DNA of 64,000 nt from Terriglobia bacterium (GTDB lineage: Bacteria; Acidobacteriota; Terriglobia; Bryobacterales; UBA6623), in assembly GCA_009838515.1 (NCBI GenBank), contig VXRL01000084.1, positions 62,001 to 126,000 of the forward strand. Reading direction: 5' to 3'. Below, one piece after another: positions 7,736 through 19,172 of this stretch (its first letter is position 1; every line of letters starts with the position of its first letter). The notes beneath the pieces were generated by a model, which worked only from the letters and a program-made list of their open reading frames with translations, had not been told where the DNA came from and made no database searches. A program made the translations under genes and the position numbers.

Positions 7736-8026
7736 ATGAAGACATCGGGCGTACGCGAGGTCAAGAACCGCCTGAGCGCCTATCTCCGCATGGTAGAGCA
7801 GGGCGAGCGCGTGGCGATCACCCATCACGGACGGGTCGTGGCCGAATTGGGCCCCCCTGCGCACGCCACCGAGGAAGAAGCCAACGCCGGGCTGAGGCGT
7901 CGCGCCCTTGCCGGATCGGTTCGCCTAGGTGCGGCGAACCGCCCGGACGTTTACCCCAGGCCCACCGGCCGGTTGCCGTCCCGGGTTGTACAGGATCTGC
8001 TCGACGAGACTAGGGGAGAAAGGTGA
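7736..8026 (+). CDS. vapB: Type II antitoxin, Phd/YefM family (VapB)
   Basis: 96 residues. The N-terminal block VREVKNRLSAYLRMVEQGE followed by VAITHHGRVVAEL is the Phd/YefM DNA-binding fold that represses its own operon. The C-terminal 50 residues are Arg/Pro-rich and would wrap the toxin. It lies first in the operon and overlaps the toxin start by 4 bp (GTGA), the usual translational coupling of antitoxin and toxin. It is expected to neutralise the PIN toxin by occupying its active site. Confidence 0.85.
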   Translation: MKTSGVREVKNRLSAYLRMVEQGERVAITHHGRVVAELGPPAHATEEEANAGLRRRALAGSVRLGAANRPDVYPRPTGRLPSRVVQDLLDETRGER

Positions 8027-8484
8027 CGCTCTATGCGGAGACGAGTGCCGTCCTTGCATGGCTGCTCGACGAAGAGCGAGCAGGACGCGCTGGCCTTGCT
8101 TGGTCGCAACTTGTCGCCGCCGATGCTGTCCACAGCTCGGACCTGACGCTCGTCGAGTGCGATCGGACGCTCCGACGGGCCGTCGCGACTGGGCGAATCA
8201 GTGCCGACGAATCATTGCGGCTTCACGCAATCGTCGATAGGGCGTCAGCGTTTTGGACCCTCCACGGCATGGATGCGGAAGTTGTTGAGCGGTCCCGACG
8301 GTCGTTTCCTTGCGAGCCGATCAGGTCGCTGGATGCCCTTCATCTGGCTACGGCGCTGGTCGTTCGGAATCTGGCGCCCGACGTGCAGGTCCTGTCGTTC
8401 GATGATCGGATCCGAGACAATGCGACCGCCCTCGGGCTCGACCTTGTACCGGCGACGGCCAGGCAGCTGCCGCCTTCTGGCTGA
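8023..8484 (+). CDS. vapC: PIN-domain ribonuclease toxin (VapC family)
   Basis: 153 residues, GTG start overlapping the antitoxin stop. PIN toxins cut tRNA or rRNA with a cluster of acidic residues binding Mg2+. Acidic positions seen: E6 in LYAETSAVL (Glu instead of the more usual Asp), a Glu in LTLVECDRTL, Asp in SLDALHLATAL, and Asp in SFDDRIRDNA near the C-terminus. SLDALHLATA is a strong family signature. The set of acids looks intact, so the toxin is probably active. The RNA target cannot be read from the sequence. Confidence 0.87.
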   Translation: MTLYAETSAVLAWLLDEERAGRAGLAWSQLVAADAVHSSDLTLVECDRTLRRAVATGRISADESLRLHAIVDRASAFWTLHGMDAEVVERSRRSFPCEPIRSLDALHLATALVVRNLAPDVQVLSFDDRIRDNATALGLDLVPATARQLPPSG

Positions 8485-8563
8485 CGAGCGTCCGTTCCGC
8501 CTGCCCTATTCGTTCCAATGCATCCAGCACACGGCCGAGCTGGTACGCCATGAACGAAACGGA
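8485..8563 (-). pseudogene. Sulfatase gene remnant (internal fragment)
   Basis: The complement encodes SVSFMAYQLGRVLDALERIG followed by QAERT. This matches, with few changes, the segment SVSFMDYQLGRVLDALERLG-QADRT of the intact sulfatase at 17757-19172. The DNA is also clearly similar. The match stops near RT, where the intact protein continues into the FFGDHGWHLGE block. No start, active site or C-terminus remains. It abuts the end of vapC, so vapBC may have inserted into, or been left beside, a decaying sulfatase gene. Confidence 0.75.
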
Positions 8564-8857: not shown

Positions 8858-10636
8858 TCACCTTGAACTAGTGGGACTCTCTCCCTCGCGTACAACCAAA
8901 ACACGATTCGCCGAGATTTCCTCAAAGCGGTCAACGCGGCCGCTCGGCCATACGACCTCAACTCGCTCAACTTGGTCTTGGTTGCCCAATCCGAAGTGGA
9001 GGCGCGGGTCGTGCGCAGACTGATAGCTGCCCCCGCCAATGCGCTCCGCGACTTGAGTGACTCCACCTGACGAGATGGTGACCCGGGCCCCGATACCGTC
9101 CTTGTTGGAGAGCTCTCCAACCAACTGCACCTGTAGCCAGCCGCTTCGGTTGCCGCCATCATTTCGTAGCAGCTGCAGCTGCTGGCCGTTGTTCGCTACC
9201 AGCACGTCGGTGTCGCCGTCGTTGTCGTAGTCGGCGAACGCGGCTGCGCGGCTGACGCGAGGGCGCGCGACGGCCGCACCGAGTCGTTCGCCGATTTCCT
9301 CGAACTTTCCGCCGACATTGCGGAACACCAGCTTCTTCTCTTGGTACTGAGTGCCTTCGTGGAAGAGTTCGATGTTGTCCAGCACGTGACCGTTCGCAAC
9401 GAAGAGGTCGCGCCAACCATCGTTGTCATAGTCCACAAACCGCGCCCCGAATCCGCTGACGTCAAAAGTGGCATAGCCAATTCCGTCTTCAAAGGTGGCA
9501 TCTAGGAAGGTGCCATCCCGTGCGTTGCGGTACAGCCGGTCGAATTCGAAGTCCAGATGCGTCATATAGAGGTCGGGCCAGCCATCGCCGTCGTAGTCCG
9601 CAGCGTCTACGCCCATCCCCGCCTCGGCCTCGCCGTTCTCGCCTAGAGCCACGCCCGCGATGAACGCCACCTCCTCAAACTTCCGGCCCTCAATGTTGCG
9701 AAACAGGAAGTTCGGCATAGAATCATTCGCGACGAAAATGTCCATCCAGCCATCCCGATCATAGTCAAAGCACACCACGCCCAAGCCATTGCCCGCTTGG
9801 CCCGCCAAGCCCACACTCTCGGTCACATCGTCAAACCCGCCGTCACCCCGATTCCGAAAGAGTGTCGGCTCTTGACCCATGTATCTGTTCGGGTGGCAGT
9901 AAGAGCGATAGCCGGGCCGGCGTTCCCCGCAATGGAAGTTGCGCTCCGGGGACCAATCCAAGTAATTGATGATCACGAGGTCGAGAAGGCCATCGTTGTC
10001 GTAATCGAACCAGGCCGCGCTAGTCGCCCACTTGCCTGCGTTGGCTACGCCCGCCGCCTGGGTTACGTCTTCAAAGGCCCCCTTTCCGTCGTTGCGGTAG
10101 AGCGTGGACCTAGCGTATCCGGTGACGACTAGGTCGGGGTCGCCGTCGTTGTCGTAGTCACCGACGGCCACACCCATAGCGAACAATCCCTCCGCGCCGG
10201 CCGAGGTTGCGGCTGTGACATCCGCGAATTGACCGTCGCCCAAGTTACGGTAAAGAGCGCCTCGCAACGGAACCGAGGGCGCGAACGCATCCGTGCCCGC
10301 ACTGTTCGCAACATAGAAATCAAGCCGGCCGTCACCGTCGTAGTCCAGCCAGGCTGCCCCGCCGCCCATGGTTTCGATCAGGAATTTCTCAGAACTGGCG
10401 GCGTTCTCGTGGACAAACGAAATCCCGGATTCGATAGTCACGTCCACGAACTGGACCGTAGAGCCCAGCTGGTCATTCTCAGCCGTCGCCGAAGCGAGCG
10501 GAAGCAGGGAGCTGGCCACCGCGAGAAAGGCCGTCGGAACGATCCCGAACGTATTGGTGAGTGGGCGCGGCGTGAACGCCCCGCCCTCGACCACGGGCCG
10601 CGCAGCCCCGCTAGGCCCGAGTGACATCGCTGTCAT
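8858..10636 (-). CDS. CRTAC1-family exported protein (FG-GAP/VCBS repeats plus ASPIC/UnbV domain)
   Basis: About 592 residues from the ATG at 10636; the ATG at 10627 or the longer start at 10732 are also possible and none has a strong ribosome site. A hydrophobic export segment (FLAVASSLLPLASATA) lies before the mature part. Calcium-loop repeats of the DxDxDGxxD type recur through the protein: DYDGDGRLDFYVAN, DYDNDGDPDLVVTG, DYDRDGWMDIFVAN, DYDGDGWPDLYMTH, DYDNDGDTDVLVANN. They form a predicted seven-bladed propeller. The C-terminal 100 residues (IGARVTIS, then LHFGLGNQDQVERVEVVWPS) are the ASPIC/UnbV domain. It lies just downstream of the TonB receptor in the same direction. The role is unknown; an outer-surface binding protein working with that receptor is an inference. 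Confidence 0.88.
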   Translation of the reverse strand: MTAMSLGPSGAARPVVEGGAFTPRPLTNTFGIVPTAFLAVASSLLPLASATAENDQLGSTVQFVDVTIESGISFVHENAASSEKFLIETMGGGAAWLDYDGDGRLDFYVANSAGTDAFAPSVPLRGALYRNLGDGQFADVTAATSAGAEGLFAMGVAVGDYDNDGDPDLVVTGYARSTLYRNDGKGAFEDVTQAAGVANAGKWATSAAWFDYDNDGLLDLVIINYLDWSPERNFHCGERRPGYRSYCHPNRYMGQEPTLFRNRGDGGFDDVTESVGLAGQAGNGLGVVCFDYDRDGWMDIFVANDSMPNFLFRNIEGRKFEEVAFIAGVALGENGEAEAGMGVDAADYDGDGWPDLYMTHLDFEFDRLYRNARDGTFLDATFEDGIGYATFDVSGFGARFVDYDNDGWRDLFVANGHVLDNIELFHEGTQYQEKKLVFRNVGGKFEEIGERLGAAVARPRVSRAAAFADYDNDGDTDVLVANNGQQLQLLRNDGGNRSGWLQVQLVGELSNKDGIGARVTISSGGVTQVAERIGGGSYQSAHDPRLHFGLGNQDQVERVEVVWPSGRVDRFEEISANRVLVVREGESPTSSR

Positions 10637-10763
10637 CCATCTGCATCGCTGGCGTCGCGTCAACGGCTGATCGCGGCCGTCGCTGCCCGACCGGACAGGC
10701 CCGCGAATCTTGGAAGGGACCCGAGTCCACATCGGGGCCCTTCCGCATGGAATGTCGGCGGCG

Positions 10764-13700
10764 CTAGAAGACTACCTTCACGCCGAACTGGATGCTGCGT
10801 GCGCTGAATGTGTTCGTGACGCGGCCAAAGTTCCCGCTTTGCAGACTCCCACTCACCGAGCCGAGATTCTCGACGTTGAATACATTGAAGAACTCCGCAC
10901 GTAGGTCGATTCGCCCGCCCTCGCCAAGCAGCGGCACTGGAATCTGCCGCAACAGGTTGAGATCCGTGTTGTTGTAGCCCGGATTGTTGAACGTGTTGCG
11001 TCCAAGCGAGCCAGGCCTAACGGTCTGAGGCTTCGGGAAGTCGCTTGCCTCGAACAGTCCGTTGATGTAGTCGTCCTTGGTCGCGCCCTTGACCGTGTCG
11101 CCGAAGGCTGGCTGGTCGGGCCGGTCGTTGTTGAATCCGTCTGCGTTGAAGTCGCAACCAGTGTTGCCGATCAGGTTGCCGCCGCCGTCGAACACTGGCT
11201 GGAACGGAAGTCCGCAAGACACGTTGAACGGCGAGCCGCTCTGCAGGATCGTCGTGATGCCCACCTGCCAGTCGCCGAGAATCGCCTTGCCAAGGCCGGT
11301 GCGAATAGGAGAGGGAATCTCGAAGATCAAGCTCATGGCGTACTTGTGACGCACGTCGAAACGTGACCGGCCGCGATTCAGGCGCATGTCGGTCAGCTCT
11401 ACCAAGTGCTCGCCAGAGAAGCTGCTGGCCGTATCGACAGCTTTGCCGAAGGTGTAGGCCCCTTGGAACAACAGGCCTTGCGCGAAGCGCTTCTTGAGGC
11501 TGGTATTTATCCCTTGGTAGTAGGACTTGCCGTTGTTCTGCCCGTACTGGATGCTGCCGAAACTCGGATTCAGGCGGTCCAGCCGACCATCGAGCAGGTC
11601 GCCGGAGAAGCGATTGACCTCGTAGTTTTGATACAGCTTCGTTCCCTGTGATCCCACATAGTTCGCCTCGACAGCCCAGTCCCTGCCCAGCGCGTACTGG
11701 AGGCCGAAGAACCAGTTGATCGCGTACTGGTTCTTCAGGTCTGGCTCCCAGATCTGGATCGCGGCGGGCACGCCGATCAGACCGCCGCGCTCGTCCAGCC
11801 CGACCTGCAGGTCCGGGGGCCGGGGAAACATCCATGGCGACTCATTGGTGCTACTGAGGCCATAGACCGGCTTGGCATCCGTCTGCTTGTTGACGTTGGC
11901 AACGGCGAAGATCGGGAGGCTCGTGCAGCAGTCTCGATAGAACTGTCCTCCCGGACGGTCGTAGAACATCCCGCTGCCTGCCCGAATCGACATCTTGCCC
12001 CGCCCCGTGGGATCCCACGCAATCCCGAGCCGGGGTGCAAAGTTGTTCATGTCGGTGGAATTCAGGGGCGGCCCCTGACGCACACCCACGTCGGCAATCC
12101 GCTCCGTGAAGTTGCTGCCGCCACGGAAGTTCGCCCCGACGAAAATCCCGTCTAGGTCGGTCGGAATGGGGAATGCCTCCCAGCGCACGCCCCAACTAAC
12201 TGTCAAGTTCGGCCGTACCTTCCAGTCATCGTTGATGAAGAAGCCCCAATTGGTAAAGCGCGGCCTGAAATCGAATCCCCTGGCGTCGCCCGTCGCCGGA
12301 TCGAAGCCGATGTTCCCGTGGGAGAACGGATCGTCCAGAGCGAAGTCCCAGAGGCTGTTGAAACCGTAGTTCGGCCGCTCCCATACCGCGGCGAACAGCG
12401 CGCCCGCGCCGGGGCATCCGCTGTCGCAGTTGAAGTTCCCGCCGAACTTGAAGGAGTGCGACCCTTTGTTCCAGGTCGTGACATTGCGCCACTGCTGGTT
12501 GTTCTGAATGAACACCGCGTCAGAGAAGCCCTGACCATAGCCCTCAATGCCAGGCACGTTGATGCGCGGAATCTCTCCGCGGCCGATGGGCGCATCGCCC
12601 TCCGCGTGCTGCCACGACCACGAGGTCTCGTTGATCACGTTGGTCGAAATGATGCGCGTCCAGTTCAGATTCGCGAACGCCGTCCACTGCTCCTGCATGT
12701 TGGTGAAGGCGGGATAGACCGACGGATTGCCGAACAGCACTTGCTGGTTCGTGGTGCGGGCAACGCTTCCGTAGATGCGATCCTTGCTCTCGTTGAAGTT
12801 GTGGTCGATGCGCAGGGTCCATTGCATGCCGTCGCGCGGCAGGGTCTGAGCGAAGGAACCGCGCTCGGTGACCGGGAAGTCGCAGGGAAGTGAACCGACC
12901 GGTGTGGAAATCCCCTCGGAACCGCTGCAATCGGAGCCAAGCAGGCCGCCAGCCGTCTGAGCGACGGTCTTCGCTTCCAAGATGTCTGGGAACTCGTTCA
13001 TGACCATCGCGCCGATGTTGTTCGGGTAGCGTTCGCGGACCAAGTTGGCGAACTCGCGGCTCACAACGGTCCGGCTAAACCCGGCACCGACGCCGGACCT
13101 CAAGATGTCCATCGACGCGAACGCGAACGTGCGGTTCTTGATGATTGGCGCACCAAGGCTCCAGTTTGCCTCGTTGCGGCGGAACACCGGCACGCCGGCG
13201 GCTTGGAATCGATTCGGCTTCTGCAGGACGTTGTTGGTGTGGAACCAGCCCAGCGTGCCGTGGACCTCGTTTGTACCCGATTTGGTCACCACATTCACGA
13301 GCACCGAGGAGTTCCTTCCGTACTCTGCGGAAAAGTTGTTGACCGATACTCGGAGTTCCTGCACGGAATCGGCGTTGGGATTGTGATTGACTACGCCGCC
13401 ACGAGGACTGGCGTTGACCGAAGCGCCATCGACGTTGAAGCTGTTGGACTCAGCCCGCTGACCGTTCCCGCTCAGGTTGACGCCATACTCTGCGGAGAAA
13501 ATATCGCCCGTGGCCTGCGCGTAAGCCTGGCCGCCCCCAGAGGGCAGCCCGACAACGCCGGGAGTCAGCACGACCAGGGTCATGAAGTTGCGTCCGACCA
13601 AGGGCAGGTCTGCCACCTCTGTCTCCGCGATCTGGCCGGACACCTTGGCCTCGCCGGTCTCGATCAGCGGCGCTTCCGAAGTCACGCTGACCGTTTCGGT

Positions 13701-14081
13701 TGTTGCTCCGAGCTCCAGCTGAATGTTTAGGGTCGTCGTCTGGGCGACCTCCAACGTCACCCGCTCTTGGACATAGGTCTGAAACCCCTCGGTCCCGACA
13801 GTCACCCGGTAGGTGCTGGCTGCCAGCGCGATAGCGCGATAGCGGCCCGCCCCAGAGGTCTCAACGGTACGGACCGTCCCGGTGTCCACATCTTCGATCT
13901 CAACCTGGACTCCTGGGATGACCGCTCCGGCCGGGTCGCTGATCGTGCCCTCCAGAATGCTGCTGAACTGCGCCTGCAAGCCCGTCGCAGCCGCGACCAA
14001 GAACACCGCGAGACGGAAAGCCCGTCCTGTGCTGAAGCTCCCATCGGAGCCGGAAGCCCTCGACAAGCCTTTTTCGGTCAT
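10764..14081 (-). CDS. TonB-dependent receptor, Oar-like, with carboxypeptidase-type regulatory N-domain
   Basis: 1105 residues, start supported by GGAGG 8 bp upstream. After a signal peptide (FLVAAATGLQAQ) comes a CarboxypepD_reg-like domain at about 40-125 (GTISDPAGAVIPGVQVEI). The plug follows at about 135-300 (DLPLVGRNFMTLVVLTPGVV; SFNVDGASVN), then a long 22-strand-type outer-membrane barrel ending in SIQFGVKVVF with the typical terminal Phe. This class is greatly expanded in Acidobacteriota and takes up oligosaccharides, peptides or other large substrates using TonB energy. The substrate cannot be read here. The CRTAC1 gene follows; two TPR genes are divergent. Confidence 0.92.
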   Translation of the reverse strand: MTEKGLSRASGSDGSFSTGRAFRLAVFLVAAATGLQAQFSSILEGTISDPAGAVIPGVQVEIEDVDTGTVRTVETSGAGRYRAIALAASTYRVTVGTEGFQTYVQERVTLEVAQTTTLNIQLELGATTETVSVTSEAPLIETGEAKVSGQIAETEVADLPLVGRNFMTLVVLTPGVVGLPSGGGQAYAQATGDIFSAEYGVNLSGNGQRAESNSFNVDGASVNASPRGGVVNHNPNADSVQELRVSVNNFSAEYGRNSSVLVNVVTKSGTNEVHGTLGWFHTNNVLQKPNRFQAAGVPVFRRNEANWSLGAPIIKNRTFAFASMDILRSGVGAGFSRTVVSREFANLVRERYPNNIGAMVMNEFPDILEAKTVAQTAGGLLGSDCSGSEGISTPVGSLPCDFPVTERGSFAQTLPRDGMQWTLRIDHNFNESKDRIYGSVARTTNQQVLFGNPSVYPAFTNMQEQWTAFANLNWTRIISTNVINETSWSWQHAEGDAPIGRGEIPRINVPGIEGYGQGFSDAVFIQNNQQWRNVTTWNKGSHSFKFGGNFNCDSGCPGAGALFAAVWERPNYGFNSLWDFALDDPFSHGNIGFDPATGDARGFDFRPRFTNWGFFINDDWKVRPNLTVSWGVRWEAFPIPTDLDGIFVGANFRGGSNFTERIADVGVRQGPPLNSTDMNNFAPRLGIAWDPTGRGKMSIRAGSGMFYDRPGGQFYRDCCTSLPIFAVANVNKQTDAKPVYGLSSTNESPWMFPRPPDLQVGLDERGGLIGVPAAIQIWEPDLKNQYAINWFFGLQYALGRDWAVEANYVGSQGTKLYQNYEVNRFSGDLLDGRLDRLNPSFGSIQYGQNNGKSYYQGINTSLKKRFAQGLLFQGAYTFGKAVDTASSFSGEHLVELTDMRLNRGRSRFDVRHKYAMSLIFEIPSPIRTGLGKAILGDWQVGITTILQSGSPFNVSCGLPFQPVFDGGGNLIGNTGCDFNADGFNNDRPDQPAFGDTVKGATKDDYINGLFEASDFPKPQTVRPGSLGRNTFNNPGYNNTDLNLLRQIPVPLLGEGGRIDLRAEFFNVFNVENLGSVSGSLQSGNFGRVTNTFSARSIQFGVKVVF

Positions 14082-14373
14082 ACCGCGTTACCTCCAATTC
14101 GAAAGGCGGAATTCGCGCCGACATCGGCCACTCCAACGAGGCGTTGGATGGAACGCTGCCATCGCGCCGCGCAACCATCTTAGTGAAGATTTGGGTTCTG
14201 TCAACGGAAATACTTGCCGCCTCGCCGCTTACAGGCCTAGAGCCCTCCTTTGACGTAGGGATCCATCGCTTCTGGCCATGCGCGGCGGCCACCGCCGGAT
14301 TGGATGCTTTGGTGTGCGGAGGAGTGCCGCACGAACAACGGCTTCGGAGAAGACTGTAAGCTAGGGGCGAATC

Positions 14374-15993
14374 GTGCTGCTTGCTCGGATCGGCGCACCC
14401 AAAACCGGCACTCGGCGGCTAGTTCGGCTTGCGGCCGCCGCGACCGTGGTGCTGGCTGGCCTCGCGGAAGTGCGAGACCGAGCGGCTGCCCAGACCCCGC
14501 GCGACCGCTATGGGCAAGCGGTCGCGCACATGGAGCGCGGCGAATGGGCGCCTGCGATCACGCTGCTACGCGATGTCATCGCGGCCGTCCCCGGCAACGC
14601 CAGGTTGCACAACACGCTCGGAATCGCCCTCTCTTCAGACGGCCAAGGCGACGCTGCGGCGGAGCAATTCGGACGTGCGCTCGAGTTGGATCCCGCATAC
14701 ACGTCGGCGCTAAAGAATCTCGCAATGCACGAAATGTCGAGGCATCGGCCGAACGCCGCAAGACCCTATTTCGAGCGGCTGCTGGCCGCCTCGGGCGGGG
14801 ATGCATTCGCCCATCTGGGGCTGGCTGAGATCGCTTTCGCGAACGGCGAATTCACCGATGCCGTCACTCACTTCGAGGCGAGCCTCGGCCTGCTGACGCG
14901 AGACCCGCGGCTGCTGGTGAACTTCGCCACTGCGCTGGTCCGGACCGGCCAGGCAGCAAGAGCCGCGGTCGCGTTGGAAGAGCTGCCCGCGACGGCCCCC
15001 CCGGATCTCCACTTCCAGGCAGGACTTGTCTTAGCAGGAATCGAGCGGTACGCCGAAGCAGCCCGCGAGTTCGAGCGGGCTGACGGCAGCAACGCCGATC
15101 CCTACGAGCTGGGCTTCAATCTCGTATTGGCACACTTCAAGAGCGGGCAACACGCCAAGGCAGCGCTAGCTGGGGAAGCGCTGCTGGAAGCTGGCCACGG
15201 CTCGGCCGAACTGTACAACGTGCTTTCCCAAGCGTACGAGAGTGCGGGCGACACCAAGAGCGCCTACGATGCGCTGCGCACGGCCACCGAACTGGCACCG
15301 GAAGACGAGTCGAACTACGTGGACTTGATCGCGCTGTGCTTGGATCACGAGAATTTCGATCTCGGTATCGAGATCGCCGACATTGCCGTCGGCAGGGTCC
15401 CCGGTTCTCACAGGCTCCACTTGCAACGCGGCGTCGCGCTGGCCATGAAGGGCAGGTTCGAGGATGCCGAGGAGGCGTTCGACCGGGCGACCGCCCTAGC
15501 CCCGGAGGCGAGCTTGCCCGGCACGGCGCTCGGGCTGATCTTGATGCAGCAGGATCGGCTCCCGGAAGCCGTGAGCGTGCTGCGGAAGCGAAGCAAGCGC
15601 GCGGCTGGCGATTACCTAGTCCACTGGTTCTTGGCAGAGGCCCTGCACCGCTCTGGAGTTGAACCGGGATCGGAGGCCGAGGCAGAAGCCGTTCGGGCGG
15701 TACGCCGGTCGGTGGCGCTGAATCCGGAGCTGTTTCAATCGCGGCTTCTGCTGGGCCGCATGCTGGCGCGACGCGGCGTATTCAACGAGGCGATCGAGCA
15801 CCTCCAGAAGGCCCGCGCAATCGATCCGACGGCAGTGGCTGCAACCTACCAGTTGGCTCTCGTGCATCGAAGCCTCGGTGACACGGAACAGGCCAAGGAA
15901 TTGCTCGCACTCGTCGGGCGCCAAAAGGCCGAGGATCGTGAGCAGTTCACCAAGGGTGGCCTGCTCCGCATCGTCCGCGAAGGCAGGCCGTGA
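14374..15993 (+). CDS. Exported tetratricopeptide-repeat protein
   Basis: 539 residues, GTG start with an AGGGG site upstream. The N-terminus (RLAAAATVVLAGLAEVRDRAAAQ) is a signal peptide. The remainder is about 14 TPR-like helix pairs, for example ARLHNTLGIALSSDGQGDAA, AYTSALKNLAMHEMSRHRPN and the late LFQSRLLLGRMLARRGVFNE. No catalytic domain is present. The gene overlaps the next TPR gene by 4 bp (GTGA). It is divergent from the TonB receptor/CRTAC1 pair across a 292-bp spacer. TPR and CRTAC1/ASPIC genes are frequently neighbours in these bacteria, so a shared surface complex is plausible but not shown. Confidence 0.85.
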   Translation: MLLARIGAPKTGTRRLVRLAAAATVVLAGLAEVRDRAAAQTPRDRYGQAVAHMERGEWAPAITLLRDVIAAVPGNARLHNTLGIALSSDGQGDAAAEQFGRALELDPAYTSALKNLAMHEMSRHRPNAARPYFERLLAASGGDAFAHLGLAEIAFANGEFTDAVTHFEASLGLLTRDPRLLVNFATALVRTGQAARAAVALEELPATAPPDLHFQAGLVLAGIERYAEAAREFERADGSNADPYELGFNLVLAHFKSGQHAKAALAGEALLEAGHGSAELYNVLSQAYESAGDTKSAYDALRTATELAPEDESNYVDLIALCLDHENFDLGIEIADIAVGRVPGSHRLHLQRGVALAMKGRFEDAEEAFDRATALAPEASLPGTALGLILMQQDRLPEAVSVLRKRSKRAAGDYLVHWFLAEALHRSGVEPGSEAEAEAVRAVRRSVALNPELFQSRLLLGRMLARRGVFNEAIEHLQKARAIDPTAVAATYQLALVHRSLGDTEQAKELLALVGRQKAEDREQFTKGGLLRIVREGRP

Positions 15994-17624
15994 CTTGGCG
16001 CCGATTCCACGCAGGGCCGTGCCTCCGGGCAATGGGCGCGGCCTGGATTTCGTTCGCGCTCGCAATCCTGGCACCGATTGCTCCGCGAGTTGAACTCGCG
16101 GCACAGACTGCCGAGTCCAAGGTAGCTGCGGCTAGGCACCGCGAGCTGGGCTTTCGCTACCTCAAGGAAGGGAGTCCCCAAGCGGCCCTTGGGCAGTTTC
16201 ACGCGGCGGTCCAGGCAGATGGCGGAGACAAGCGTTCGCGCTTGGCGATCGGTGTCATTCAAGCGGAGCACGGAAGACTGACTGAGGCCCTGGACGAGTT
16301 CGAAGCAGCAGTTGCGATTGACCCGGACTTCGCGGAAGCACACTTTCAGCGCGGGCTGGCGCTCGAGCGGGCGGGACAGGCCGGCGAGGCCGTCGCTTCG
16401 TATCACCAAGCCCTAAGGTCGGCTCCCGACCTTTTGCCGGCCATGTATGCGTTGAGCAGCGCTCTGCGCAAGCGGGGCGACACACTCGGTGCGCGCCGAT
16501 TGCTCGAGCGAGTCGTGGGCGAGTCTCCTGATTTCACAGAAGCGATCGTCAATCTCGCATTGCTCTTGCAGCGCGAGGGCAAGGCTAGGGAAGCGGCCAA
16601 GCACCTTGCCCGAGCAAGCGAGCAGGAGCCGGACAATCCACGGGCTAGACTGGCTCTCGGCATCGTGCTCGCGGAGCTCGACGACATGCCGGGCGCGGTC
16701 TCCAGCTTGCGCGCTGCGGTCAAGCTACAGCCAGACAATCCCGACACGCATTACAACTTGGGCCTGGCACTCGCCAAGAGTCACGGGCCGGAAGAGGCGA
16801 TTCCGCTCTTTCGCGCTGCACTGGCAGTGAATCCGCACTACCCAGGCGCACGTCGTGCCCTCGGTGCCGCGCTCCAGCAGAGCGGCGACCTGATAGGTGC
16901 AGCACAGGAGCTCGAACAGGCGGTTCAGGACTTCGAAGGCGATTCCGACGCACGGAACACCCTTGGGGCGACGCTGCTCCGCTTGAAAGACCTAGACGGT
17001 GCGATCAGGCAGCTAGAAGAGGCGCTGCGCCGCAGCCCACTGCTCGTCAAGGCACACCGCAATCTCGCGCAGGCATATCAAAGGGCCGGGCGCAACGCCG
17101 AAGCACTGGCTGCCAGCGAACAGTCCGAAAGGGCCGCAGCCCGCCAAGCTCGCAGCGGCCGGGCGATGTTGCTTGTACAGCAAGGAAAGAAGCTCCTCGA
17201 GGACGGGGACGCCTCAGCGGCTGCGGAGTCGTTCAACGAAGCCGCCGAAATCAATCCCGATTCGGAGGAGGCTCACCTTTTCTACGGCATTGCGTTGTGG
17301 CGGTCGCGCGGTGATGTCACAGGCTCTCTTAGGTCGATTGACCGCGGATTGCAGATCAATCCCAGGCGTGCGGAAGCGCACTATCGGCGCGGACTGCTCC
17401 TAGAGGCCAGCGACAGACGAGACGAGGCGATGGCGTCGCTCCGGGTCGCCGTCGATCTTGCGCCCAGCCTAGAGGCCGCCCAGCGCAGCTTGGCTGGACT
17501 TGCTCTCAAGGCTGGGGACCTGGAGGTCGCCGCCCAAGCGATTGCCGCTGTGCTAGCGTGGCACCCGGACGATCAAGCCGCCCAACGGCTGCAGGCGCAA
17601 ATCCGTGAGCGAACGGCGCGTTGA
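15990..17624 (+). CDS. Exported tetratricopeptide-repeat protein, second copy type
   Basis: 544 residues from GTG at 15990, translationally coupled to the preceding TPR gene. A hydrophobic segment (GAAWISFALAILAPIAPRV) followed by ELAAQ suggests export. About 13 TPRs follow, several near the consensus, such as PDNPDTHYNLGLALAKSHGP and DSDARNTLGATLLRLKDLDG. It is related in architecture to its neighbour but not a recent duplicate, since the repeats differ throughout. It is presumably a scaffold for protein-protein contacts outside the cytoplasm; the partner is unknown. Confidence 0.85.
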   Translation: MTWRRFHAGPCLRAMGAAWISFALAILAPIAPRVELAAQTAESKVAAARHRELGFRYLKEGSPQAALGQFHAAVQADGGDKRSRLAIGVIQAEHGRLTEALDEFEAAVAIDPDFAEAHFQRGLALERAGQAGEAVASYHQALRSAPDLLPAMYALSSALRKRGDTLGARRLLERVVGESPDFTEAIVNLALLLQREGKAREAAKHLARASEQEPDNPRARLALGIVLAELDDMPGAVSSLRAAVKLQPDNPDTHYNLGLALAKSHGPEEAIPLFRAALAVNPHYPGARRALGAALQQSGDLIGAAQELEQAVQDFEGDSDARNTLGATLLRLKDLDGAIRQLEEALRRSPLLVKAHRNLAQAYQRAGRNAEALAASEQSERAAARQARSGRAMLLVQQGKKLLEDGDASAAAESFNEAAEINPDSEEAHLFYGIALWRSRGDVTGSLRSIDRGLQINPRRAEAHYRRGLLLEASDRRDEAMASLRVAVDLAPSLEAAQRSLAGLALKAGDLEVAAQAIAAVLAWHPDDQAAQRLQAQIRERTAR

Positions 17625-17756: not shown

Positions 17757-19172
17757 CTAGGCGCGCGGTTCGGCAGGCCCCTGTACGAGCCTATGTCGCA
17801 TTTGCTCCAACACGTCAGCGTGCTGGGGGTCGGCCACGAGATTCGTGAACTCCCGCGGATCCGATTCGTGGTCGTAGAGTTCCTCGCCACCCCCGTCCCC
17901 TTCCCAGCGGATGTAGCGATACTGATCTGTCCGCACGGTGCGGCCGAAAATGCGGTCTTCCCACTGCACCTGCGAGAACGCGGCATCCTTCACCGAGACG
18001 GAAGGATCGTCCAGCACGGGGGCCAAACTGACACCCTCCAGTCCAGCAGGCGCGGCCAAACCGCATAGGTCAGCCAACGTAGGATAGAAGTCCACGAATT
18101 CCGCCAGTGCCTTCGTAGACCGACCGTTGCCCCGCATCCCAGGGGCCGAGATGATCATCGGCGCCTTGACGGACTCCTCCATCAGGCTCATTTTTTGCCA
18201 GTGCGTGTGCTCCCCGAGGTGCCAGCCATGGTCTCCGAAGAACAGGACGATCGTCCGGTCCGCCTGCCCTAGTCGCTCCAACGCGTCAAGCACGCGTCCA
18301 AGTTGATAGTCCATGAATGACACGGAGGCGTAGTAGCCCCGTAGGGAAATCCGCTGGTTCTCCTCGCTCATGCCCATCTGATTCCAAAGAAACGGTCGCA
18401 GGTTCTTAGCGGGCGCCGGGATGTCGTCAAGGTCATCCGGCGGGTTCGAGACAAGTTCGATCTCCTCCAAGGGATACATATCGAAGAACTCAGTTGGTGC
18501 GACGAACGGCACGTGCGGTCGGACGAATCCCAGCCCCAGGAAGAATGGCTGGTCGGCCGTGGACTCGAGCAGTTCGATCGCCGTGTCGGCGGCCGCGGCA
18601 TCCGCCTGGCCGGACGCGTCGGCCGTTTGGATCCACTGCATCTTCAATCCGTTGCGCAGGTCAGGATTCGGATCACCACCCAGCCCGACGCTCTCGTCCT
18701 CGTCTCCCGGCGGGCTAATCGAGACATCCCACGAAGGCGGGTCTTGGTGTCTCATCGTTCCGACTCCGCCAGGGACTCCCATGTGAAACATCTTCCCGAC
18801 CCGCATGGAGCGCCAGCCGCTGTTCTTGAACAGCTGGGGGAGGGTGACAGCGTCGGGGTGCGTTTCCCTGAAGTTCACCATGGAATTGGTGACGACCCCG
18901 CTCGTGTCGGGGCGCATTCCCGTCATCAGCGAGGCGCGGCTGGGCCCGCAGAACGGGAATTGGCAATACGCGTTGTCGAATCGAACTCCACGTGCGGCGA
19001 GGCGATCGATATGCGGGGACTTGACGACCGGATGGCCGTAGCAGCCCAACGTGGAAGTAAGGTCGTCCGAGGCGACAAACAATACGTTGAGCGGGGGCTC
19101 GGTGCGTTTACAGGCAGCGGCACCAGCGGTCAGCATCGCCGCGAATTCCCGTCGCGAGGGCAAGCTTGTCAT
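17757..19172 (-). CDS. Sulfatase, iduronate-2-sulfatase-like, Tat-type lipoprotein
   Basis: 471 residues. Type I sulfatases hydrolyse sulfate esters using a formylglycine made from Cys in CxPSR. Here the motif is C75-G-P-S-R79, followed by ASLMTG. The metal-binding DD pair is at 36-37 (ASDDLTS), and FFGDHGWHLGEHTHWQK supplies further metal and substrate residues. The C-terminal RTDQYRYIRW and ELYDHESDPREFTNL blocks are typical. The N-terminus (SRREFAAMLTAGAAACK) has a twin-Arg motif and a possible lipobox Cys at 21. The formylglycine-generating enzyme is not in the window. The remnant at 8485 is derived from a close relative. Confidence 0.9.
   Translation of the reverse strand: MTSLPSRREFAAMLTAGAAACKRTEPPLNVLFVASDDLTSTLGCYGHPVVKSPHIDRLAARGVRFDNAYCQFPFCGPSRASLMTGMRPDTSGVVTNSMVNFRETHPDAVTLPQLFKNSGWRSMRVGKMFHMGVPGGVGTMRHQDPPSWDVSISPPGDEDESVGLGGDPNPDLRNGLKMQWIQTADASGQADAAAADTAIELLESTADQPFFLGLGFVRPHVPFVAPTEFFDMYPLEEIELVSNPPDDLDDIPAPAKNLRPFLWNQMGMSEENQRISLRGYYASVSFMDYQLGRVLDALERLGQADRTIVLFFGDHGWHLGEHTHWQKMSLMEESVKAPMIISAPGMRGNGRSTKALAEFVDFYPTLADLCGLAAPAGLEGVSLAPVLDDPSVSVKDAAFSQVQWEDRIFGRTVRTDQYRYIRWEGDGGGEELYDHESDPREFTNLVADPQHADVLEQMRHRLVQGPAEPRA

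Follow-up and report, generated by a model that had tools for sequence, protein, structure and literature searches.

The 64,000-nucleotide stretch of contig VXRL01000084.1 from a Terriglobia bacterium (assembly GCA_009838515.1), hereafter the window, includes four genes grouped around a 292-bp divergent region. On the minus strand are a CRTAC1-type gene (positions 8858 to 10732) and a gene for a TonB-dependent receptor (TBDR) of the CarboxypepD_reg type (10764 to 14081). On the plus strand, two genes coding for tetratricopeptide repeat (TPR) proteins, TPR1 (14374 to 15993) and TPR2 (15990 to 17624), are transcribed from the other side of that region (14082 to 14373). The grouping exceeds chance, because it stands out from circular shifts of gene positions and because the genes are found or not found jointly among related genomes. 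We propose, with moderate confidence, that the four genes specify a TonB-energised nutrient import module with TPR and propeller partners, resembling the SusCD and BtuBG systems.

The four genes and their products

The positions of the open reading frames (ORFs) and the divergent gap claimed in a preliminary description of this DNA were confirmed by an ORF map, and its four family assignments by Pfam at a cut-off of E≤1e-3. The CRTAC1 protein matched FG-GAP_3 (PF13517, six stretches), FG-GAP (PF01839) and UnbV_ASPIC (PF07593), all above the cut-off, in the order that characterizes the CRTAC1/ASPIC-UnbV family, FG-GAP repeats followed by a C-terminal ASPIC/UnbV domain. Its domains are thus those of other family members; what sets it apart is the tie to TPR and TBDR genes, and Pfam reported no EGF domain for it at this cut-off. 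Its closest solved relative by profile is human cartilage acidic protein 1 (9etn). Seven DxDxDG motifs, located at residues 84, 146, 197, 277, 333, 388 and 455 of the 578-amino acid form, would fit one motif per blade of a seven-bladed propeller. Since the start of the gene may be the ATG at 10732, which lies inside a hairpin, or position 10594, which is preferred by the codon model, the gap between TBDR and CRTAC1 measures 31 to 169 nucleotides.

The TBDR begins with a hydrophobic segment followed by the CarboxypepD_reg domain (PF13620, E 1e-18), a putative plug and a barrel, the latter matching OMP_b-brl_4 (PF25183). Pfam gave no match to the Plug domain (E≤1e-3), and the structure model aligns to TonB-dependent transporters (TBDTs) from about residue 133. 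A TonB-box-like stretch, ETVSVTSEAPLIET, was recognized by eye. The model, with a predicted local distance difference test score (pLDDT) of 63.5, aligns to TBDT structures, the SusC and BtuB-BtuG entries appearing lower in the ranking, and a comparison of the TBDR sequence with PDB sequences gave 0 matches.

Both plus-strand genes were identified as TPR genes, and no SusD family was found among the Pfam matches of their products. The TPR1 model (mean pLDDT 90.8) consists entirely of TPRs and shows 14 helix pairs; as TPR2 is of similar length, the "27 or so" TPRs previously counted in the two proteins are plausible, with the model covering TPR1 only. TPR1 and TPR2 overlap by 4 nucleotides, GTGA, an overlap that is also predicted in genome G007, and the codon model favours a later TPR2 start, at 16032. 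The term exported is used here for proteins with an N-terminal hydrophobic segment, its sole basis; TPR1 and TPR2 both have one.

Conservation and linkage of the unit

All four genes are present in six of the 11 genomes sampled from the genus (G000, which is the window genome, G002, G003, G007, G008 and G009). The cassette DNA search returned nothing in G001, G006 and G010 and only short CRTAC1-like matches in G004 and G005, and in these five genomes no TBDR was found at E≤1e-100 except two 33-38% identical relatives in G010. G000, G003, G008 and G009 have the complete layout, and in G002 the CRTAC1-TBDR and TPR1-TPR2 pairs are located on two short contigs, an arrangement that fits a single locus cut by contig ends. 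Three kinds of flank surround the cassette: one in G000 and G003, a second in G009 and G007, which have ceramidase-like neighbours 77% identical to each other, and a third in G008 and G002, where the neighbour is of the AnmK type (92%). The G009 and G008 flanks are unrelated to that of G000 and G003 and to one another; therefore, the block was kept while its surroundings changed. At the cassette locus of G007 (L247) an esterase-like gene (Abhydrolase_3/BD-FAE, 12054-12947) occupies the place of the TBDR gene, and a decayed extra copy of TPR1 (2296-2748) lies about 7 kb from CRTAC1.

More distant sets were also found. Locus L036 of G009 carries a diverged set on one strand (TBDR 47%, TPR1 36-39%, CRTAC1 57-58% and TPR2 35-37% identity), of which TBDR, TPR1 and TPR2 are, within the compared pool, reciprocal best matches outside the orthologues; its CRTAC1 is no nearer than that of L070, which is equally close or closer. 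The L036 TBDR match starts 125 nucleotides past a same-strand GH127 gene. Locus L246, from a genome of another family (G437), includes all four genes within about 11 kb: a partial TBDR at a contig edge (57% identity), TPR2 (43%), CRTAC1 (52%) and TPR1 (42-50%), the last split into two frames. The 57% TBDR is about 8 kb from TPR1, and another TBDR (26%) adjoins TPR1. Some single genes are nearer to those of the window than their L036 counterparts, as is the case for L217 (TBDR 52-53%, TPR1 43%) and likewise L246. In a 396-genome sample of the phylum, TPR1 relatives (E≤1e-60) were found in five genomes besides the window's, and all five loci carry a TBDR 31-57% identical to that of the window. 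Pairs of TBDR and TPR1 relatives stand without CRTAC1 in L217, L218, L244 and L245.

The window genome has 34 ASPIC matches, at least 64 merged TBDR genes and at least 48 merged TPR_19 genes, the last two figures being lower bounds as 65 of 96 TBDR and 150 of 493 TPR candidates were scored. Of these ASPIC genes, 21 lie within 3 kb of a TPR gene (about 1.9 expected under uniform placement; three of the 21 are in the same open frame) and 11 within 3 kb of a TBDR gene (about 3.2 expected), while away from ASPIC genes TBDR and TPR adjoin in 6/44 cases (1.5 expected). A better control than random regions was obtained from 2000 circular shifts on G009, a closed single-contig genome, for which the counts are again lower bounds (65/160 TBDR and 150/822 TPR candidates scored). 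The observed values were never reached for ASPIC-TPR (28/56, mean of the shifts 3.8), for TBDR-TPR (17/65, mean 5.8), for TBDR-TPR pairs at a distance of over 8 kb from all ASPIC genes (8/44, mean 1.6) or for ASPIC-TBDR within 5 kb (17/56, mean 7.1). With a more sensitive home-made model, a TPR gene was found within 3 kb of 38 and a TBDR gene within 3 kb of 27 of the 56 G009 ASPIC sites, compared to 17% and 21% of places, respectively, in 18 random G009 regions (two overlapping regions of the initial 20 were dropped). It is thus the TPR genes rather than the propeller genes that act as the hub joining both other families. The 6.2-Mb genome of G009 (contig C1) contains 56 ASPIC matches, a large expansion of the family, and 14 control genomes contain none.

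The same picture was obtained from 80 public CRTAC1 loci, which are the best 80 of 332 confirmed relatives and are biased to window-like ones; most of the named relatives bear the label Acidobacteriota. Of these loci, 52/80 have a TPR gene and 18/80 a TBDR gene within 3 kb; for loci with full flanks on both sides the figures are 34/54 and 12/54, and for the 16 loci titled as another phylum or none they are 9/16 and 1/16. CRTAC1/ASPIC and TPR are fused in one ORF in L048 (two cases), L050, L052, L063 and L065, which hints at direct contact between the two.

Divergences of TBDR and TPR correlate (r 0.73, n=15 pairs; r 0.55, n=13, when near-orthologues are left out), also among the 11 pairs of which none was picked by TPR similarity (r 0.45, p 0.004). 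For CRTAC1 and TPR in G009 the correlation is r 0.13 (p 0.057, n=31 pairs), or r 0.26 (p 0.0013, n=19) when on the same strand. Because TBDR-TPR1 pairs exist without CRTAC1 and because their divergences correlate, the closest partner of the TBDR is the TPR gene. CRTAC1 and TBDR as the core pair were ruled out by the absence of co-divergence in G009 and their weak linkage within 3 kb. On this point the preliminary description, which pairs the receptor with CRTAC1, has to be modified. Its proposal of a four-gene unit is borne out by the linkage of the genes in relatives, their persistence despite flank change and their joint presence or absence, and the neighbourhood does occur outside the window genome, both in the genus and in another family.

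A proposed import module and its alternatives

To examine the surroundings of the receptor, 19 loci of TBDR relatives were mapped, comprising 15 of 17 non-orthologous matches from one search and all four from the phylum search. L043-L047 seem to be one orthologous group, which reduces the number of independent cases, and L039 and L220 are near contig ends. Of the 19 loci, 15 have a TPR gene within 3 kb, although in L048 this is no more than a weak TPR portion in a CRTAC1 fusion, and nine have a CRTAC1 gene within the same distance. Pfam scans of selected neighbours revealed GH127 genes in L036, L037 (in the order TBDR-GH127-TPR), L217, L219 and L220, and an alpha-L-arabinofuranosidase, which we take to be of family GH51, in L218 and L219. 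In addition, L041 has a GH42-like gene, L217 and L218 have GalT, and L219 has an FGGY kinase. L244 and L245 share a fructan-type locus consisting of a GntR regulator, TPR1, TBDR, GH32 and a sugar transporter of the major facilitator superfamily, with a PfkB kinase in L244. A GH127 model had no match in 360 kb of random G009 DNA, in 397 kb around the window genome's own ASPIC loci or in 900 kb comprising 45 G009 ASPIC loci, a set that excludes L033, L036 and L044 (L036 has a GH127 gene). It had two in the 80-locus CRTAC1 set, in L070, which within that set holds the closest CRTAC1, and in L147, which holds the closest TBDR. The model was built from the five loci first spotted by eye, so that the zero counts and the matches in L070 and L147 are the independent part of this result. 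These glycan-use neighbourhoods around several relatives lend support to the uptake role suggested in the preliminary description, which as a whole is partly supported.

In the proposed module the Oar/SusC-type receptor would form the outer-membrane pore, and TPR1 would be its dedicated exported partner, in the position held by the TPR-based SusD of Bacteroidota; TPR2 may be a second exported partner like TPR1. CRTAC1, as an exported and probably calcium-binding propeller, would join a subset of the receptor-TPR pairs, probably for substrate binding or docking, a role comparable to that of BtuG on BtuB. The substrate would probably be an oligosaccharide, and that of the closest paralogues would probably be arabinose-containing glycans. 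The partners are placed in the periplasm by default because no lipid anchor was seen; a location at the surface, and with it the previously suggested capture by the propeller on a TPR scaffold, would presuppose another export route.

Some of the known systems share features with the unit. SusD is described as having a TPR region (PMC2954216), and BtuG as a seven-bladed propeller and surface lipoprotein that acts as a lid on BtuB (PMC10404256). As with SusC/SusD, the window TBDT has a CarboxypepD_reg-type N-terminal domain and a dedicated partner gene built of TPRs, and several of its relatives have glycosidase neighbourhoods. The window partner differs from SusD in being a pure TPR superhelix without a lipobox and not a SusD_RagB protein. 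SusD_RagB (PF07980) was found in none of 61 genomes (the window genome and 60 relatives, some incomplete) and was detected in a Bacteroides control, other SusD-like Pfam models not being searched. Like BtuB/BtuG, the unit combines a TBDT with what seems to be a propeller-type partner, judging from the seven DxDxDG motifs, but CRTAC1 is a member of the FG-GAP/ASPIC family that lacks a lipobox and is more loosely tied to the TBDR. The likeness to SusCD and BtuBG would thus be one of role, not of family. Oar of Myxococcus, reported as required for PopC secretion, shares an N-terminal PF13620 domain with the window TBDR (PMC6434023); at the window unit, however, there is no protease, and the location of several relatives in sugar-use loci argues for import. 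No description of a TBDR-TPR or TBDR-CRTAC1 module was found among the titles and abstract openings listed by searches of the open PMC literature, subscription journals being mostly outside this scope.

Several results weigh against an import module of this kind. CRTAC1 and TBDR genes lie within 3 kb of each other in 9/56 cases in G009, and 138 of the 2000 shifts (mean 5.0) reached this value; their divergences do not correlate significantly (r 0.30, p 0.11, n=7 pairs), nor do those of the G009 paralogues (r -0.07, p 0.81, n=21 pairs). In G007 the CRTAC1, TPR1 and TPR2 genes are together around the esterase-like gene and the TBDR is on another contig without them. The cassette DNA search was of limited sensitivity, as it missed the G008 TPR2 that the gene map shows, and this weakens the absences. 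Four of the 19 TBDR relatives have no TPR gene and ten no CRTAC1 gene within 3 kb, and many other neighbours are not glycan genes (sulfatase, GMC, PQQ, M48, TamB and others). Around the window copy, unlike SusC/SusD loci, there is no GH127 or GH32 match; these models had none in 168 kb comprising the window and the orthologous loci, other glycosidase families not being searched. The TBDR model is of only moderate quality, and the structures it matches best are those of siderophore and cobalamin receptors rather than SusC. TPR1 resembles TPR superhelices in general (SPINDLY, OGT), and a SusD fold was rejected as none appeared among the first 50 PDB rows, a result that does not prove its absence. 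SusD carries a lipid anchor; the window CRTAC1, TPR1 and TPR2 have no cysteine after the hydrophobic segment, hence no lipobox, and differ in this from both SusD and BtuG. A lipoprotein nature of the partners was rejected after a crude lipobox scan, negative apart from a single lipobox-like motif in the CRTAC1 orthologue of G003; with this pattern, such motifs were found in 4/40 CRTAC1, 4/42 TPR and 3/41 TBDR proteins and are thus not enriched in the partners.

Alternatively, CRTAC1 and the TPR proteins could together make up a separate exported assembly of scaffold and calcium-binding propeller, active for example in adhesion, envelope structure or protein assembly, with a TBDR sometimes co-opted and adjoining it through the clustering of envelope genes. 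This possibility, which we regard as doubtful, draws on the CRTAC1-TPR linkage, the strongest signal obtained and one that extends to other phyla among the best 80 of 332 loci, as well as on the fusion ORFs and the weaker CRTAC1-TBDR link. It does not account for the TBDR-TPR linkage seen away from ASPIC genes in both G000 and G009, for the recurrence of the four window genes as a set that is found or not found jointly, or for the excess of TBDR genes that the sensitive model revealed near G009 ASPIC sites. An unlikely reading is that the receptor is an Oar-type TonB-dependent exporter of CRTAC1, and perhaps of the TPR proteins, as Oar is for PopC. The PF13620 domain common to both receptors and the location of CRTAC1, which has no lipid anchor, 3' of the TBDR gene in the same direction agree with it, and it would account for the arrival of a non-lipidated propeller at the surface; but L217-L220, L244 and L245 have no CRTAC1 in the fetched stretch and instead include glycosidases, sugar transporters or kinases, and TBDR and CRTAC1 are unlinked in G007. 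A coincidence of three expanded families could be considered since the window genome is rich in ASPIC, TBDR and TPR genes alike. The circular shifts, the presence pattern, the flank changes and the further sets in L036 and L246 speak against this explanation, which is very improbable overall and largely refuted for the TPR links.

If the import module functions in the proposed way, it would represent a second solution, without an anchor, beside the lipoprotein-capped transporters, which are described as seemingly exclusive to Bacteroidetes (PMC10404256). A broader idea, which we put forward only tentatively, is that Acidobacteriota without SusD possess a separate class of TonB transporters with partners, with a non-lipidated TPR superhelix in place of SusD and a calcium-binding CRTAC1/ASPIC propeller as a BtuG-like binder of substrate. 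If true, partner-capped TonB transporters would no longer count as exclusive to Bacteroidetes, and bacterial CRTAC1 proteins would have their first function. The many TonB receptors and the absence of SusD_RagB from the examined genomes make the route of polymer uptake a question, and one that can be tested on the four-gene unit with its glycan-linked relatives and its wide link to TPR genes. The CRTAC1/ASPIC proteins gain a concrete first hypothesis for a role in bacteria.

Non-coding elements and neighbouring genes

The divergent region includes, on the minus strand, a promoter-like sequence TTGACA-16-TAAGAT (14204-14177), one of three such sites in the scanned region, where 1.7 are expected. 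On the plus strand, CTGTAAGCTAG (14354 to 14364) is identical across four orthologous loci, although the intergenic region is otherwise poorly conserved. It is immediately 5' of a ribosome-binding-like stretch, AGGGG, and of the GTG start codon of TPR1, and is possibly a promoter element of this gene. The hairpin between TBDR and CRTAC1 (10712 to 10744, minus strand) lacks a T run and does not differ clearly from shuffled sequences (z -1.23), leaving a terminator at this location unsupported.

A sulfatase gene identified by Pfam (17757 to 19172, minus strand) follows TPR2 and probably lies outside the unit. It was rejected as a member because the whole gene was mapped only at the window, with a remnant in G003, and it was not mapped beside the cassettes of G008, G009 and G007. 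The G003 remnant, in the cassette flank, is 520 nucleotides long and 78% identical, and an 81-nucleotide fragment in the window (8483-8563) is 80% identical to positions 18246-18326 of the sulfatase gene; copies of this gene seem to be decaying around the unit. Beside the cassette, on the plus strand (7736-8484), a small antitoxin-like gene recognized by eye is followed by a PIN-domain gene identified by Pfam, and the two are probably a toxin-antitoxin pair.

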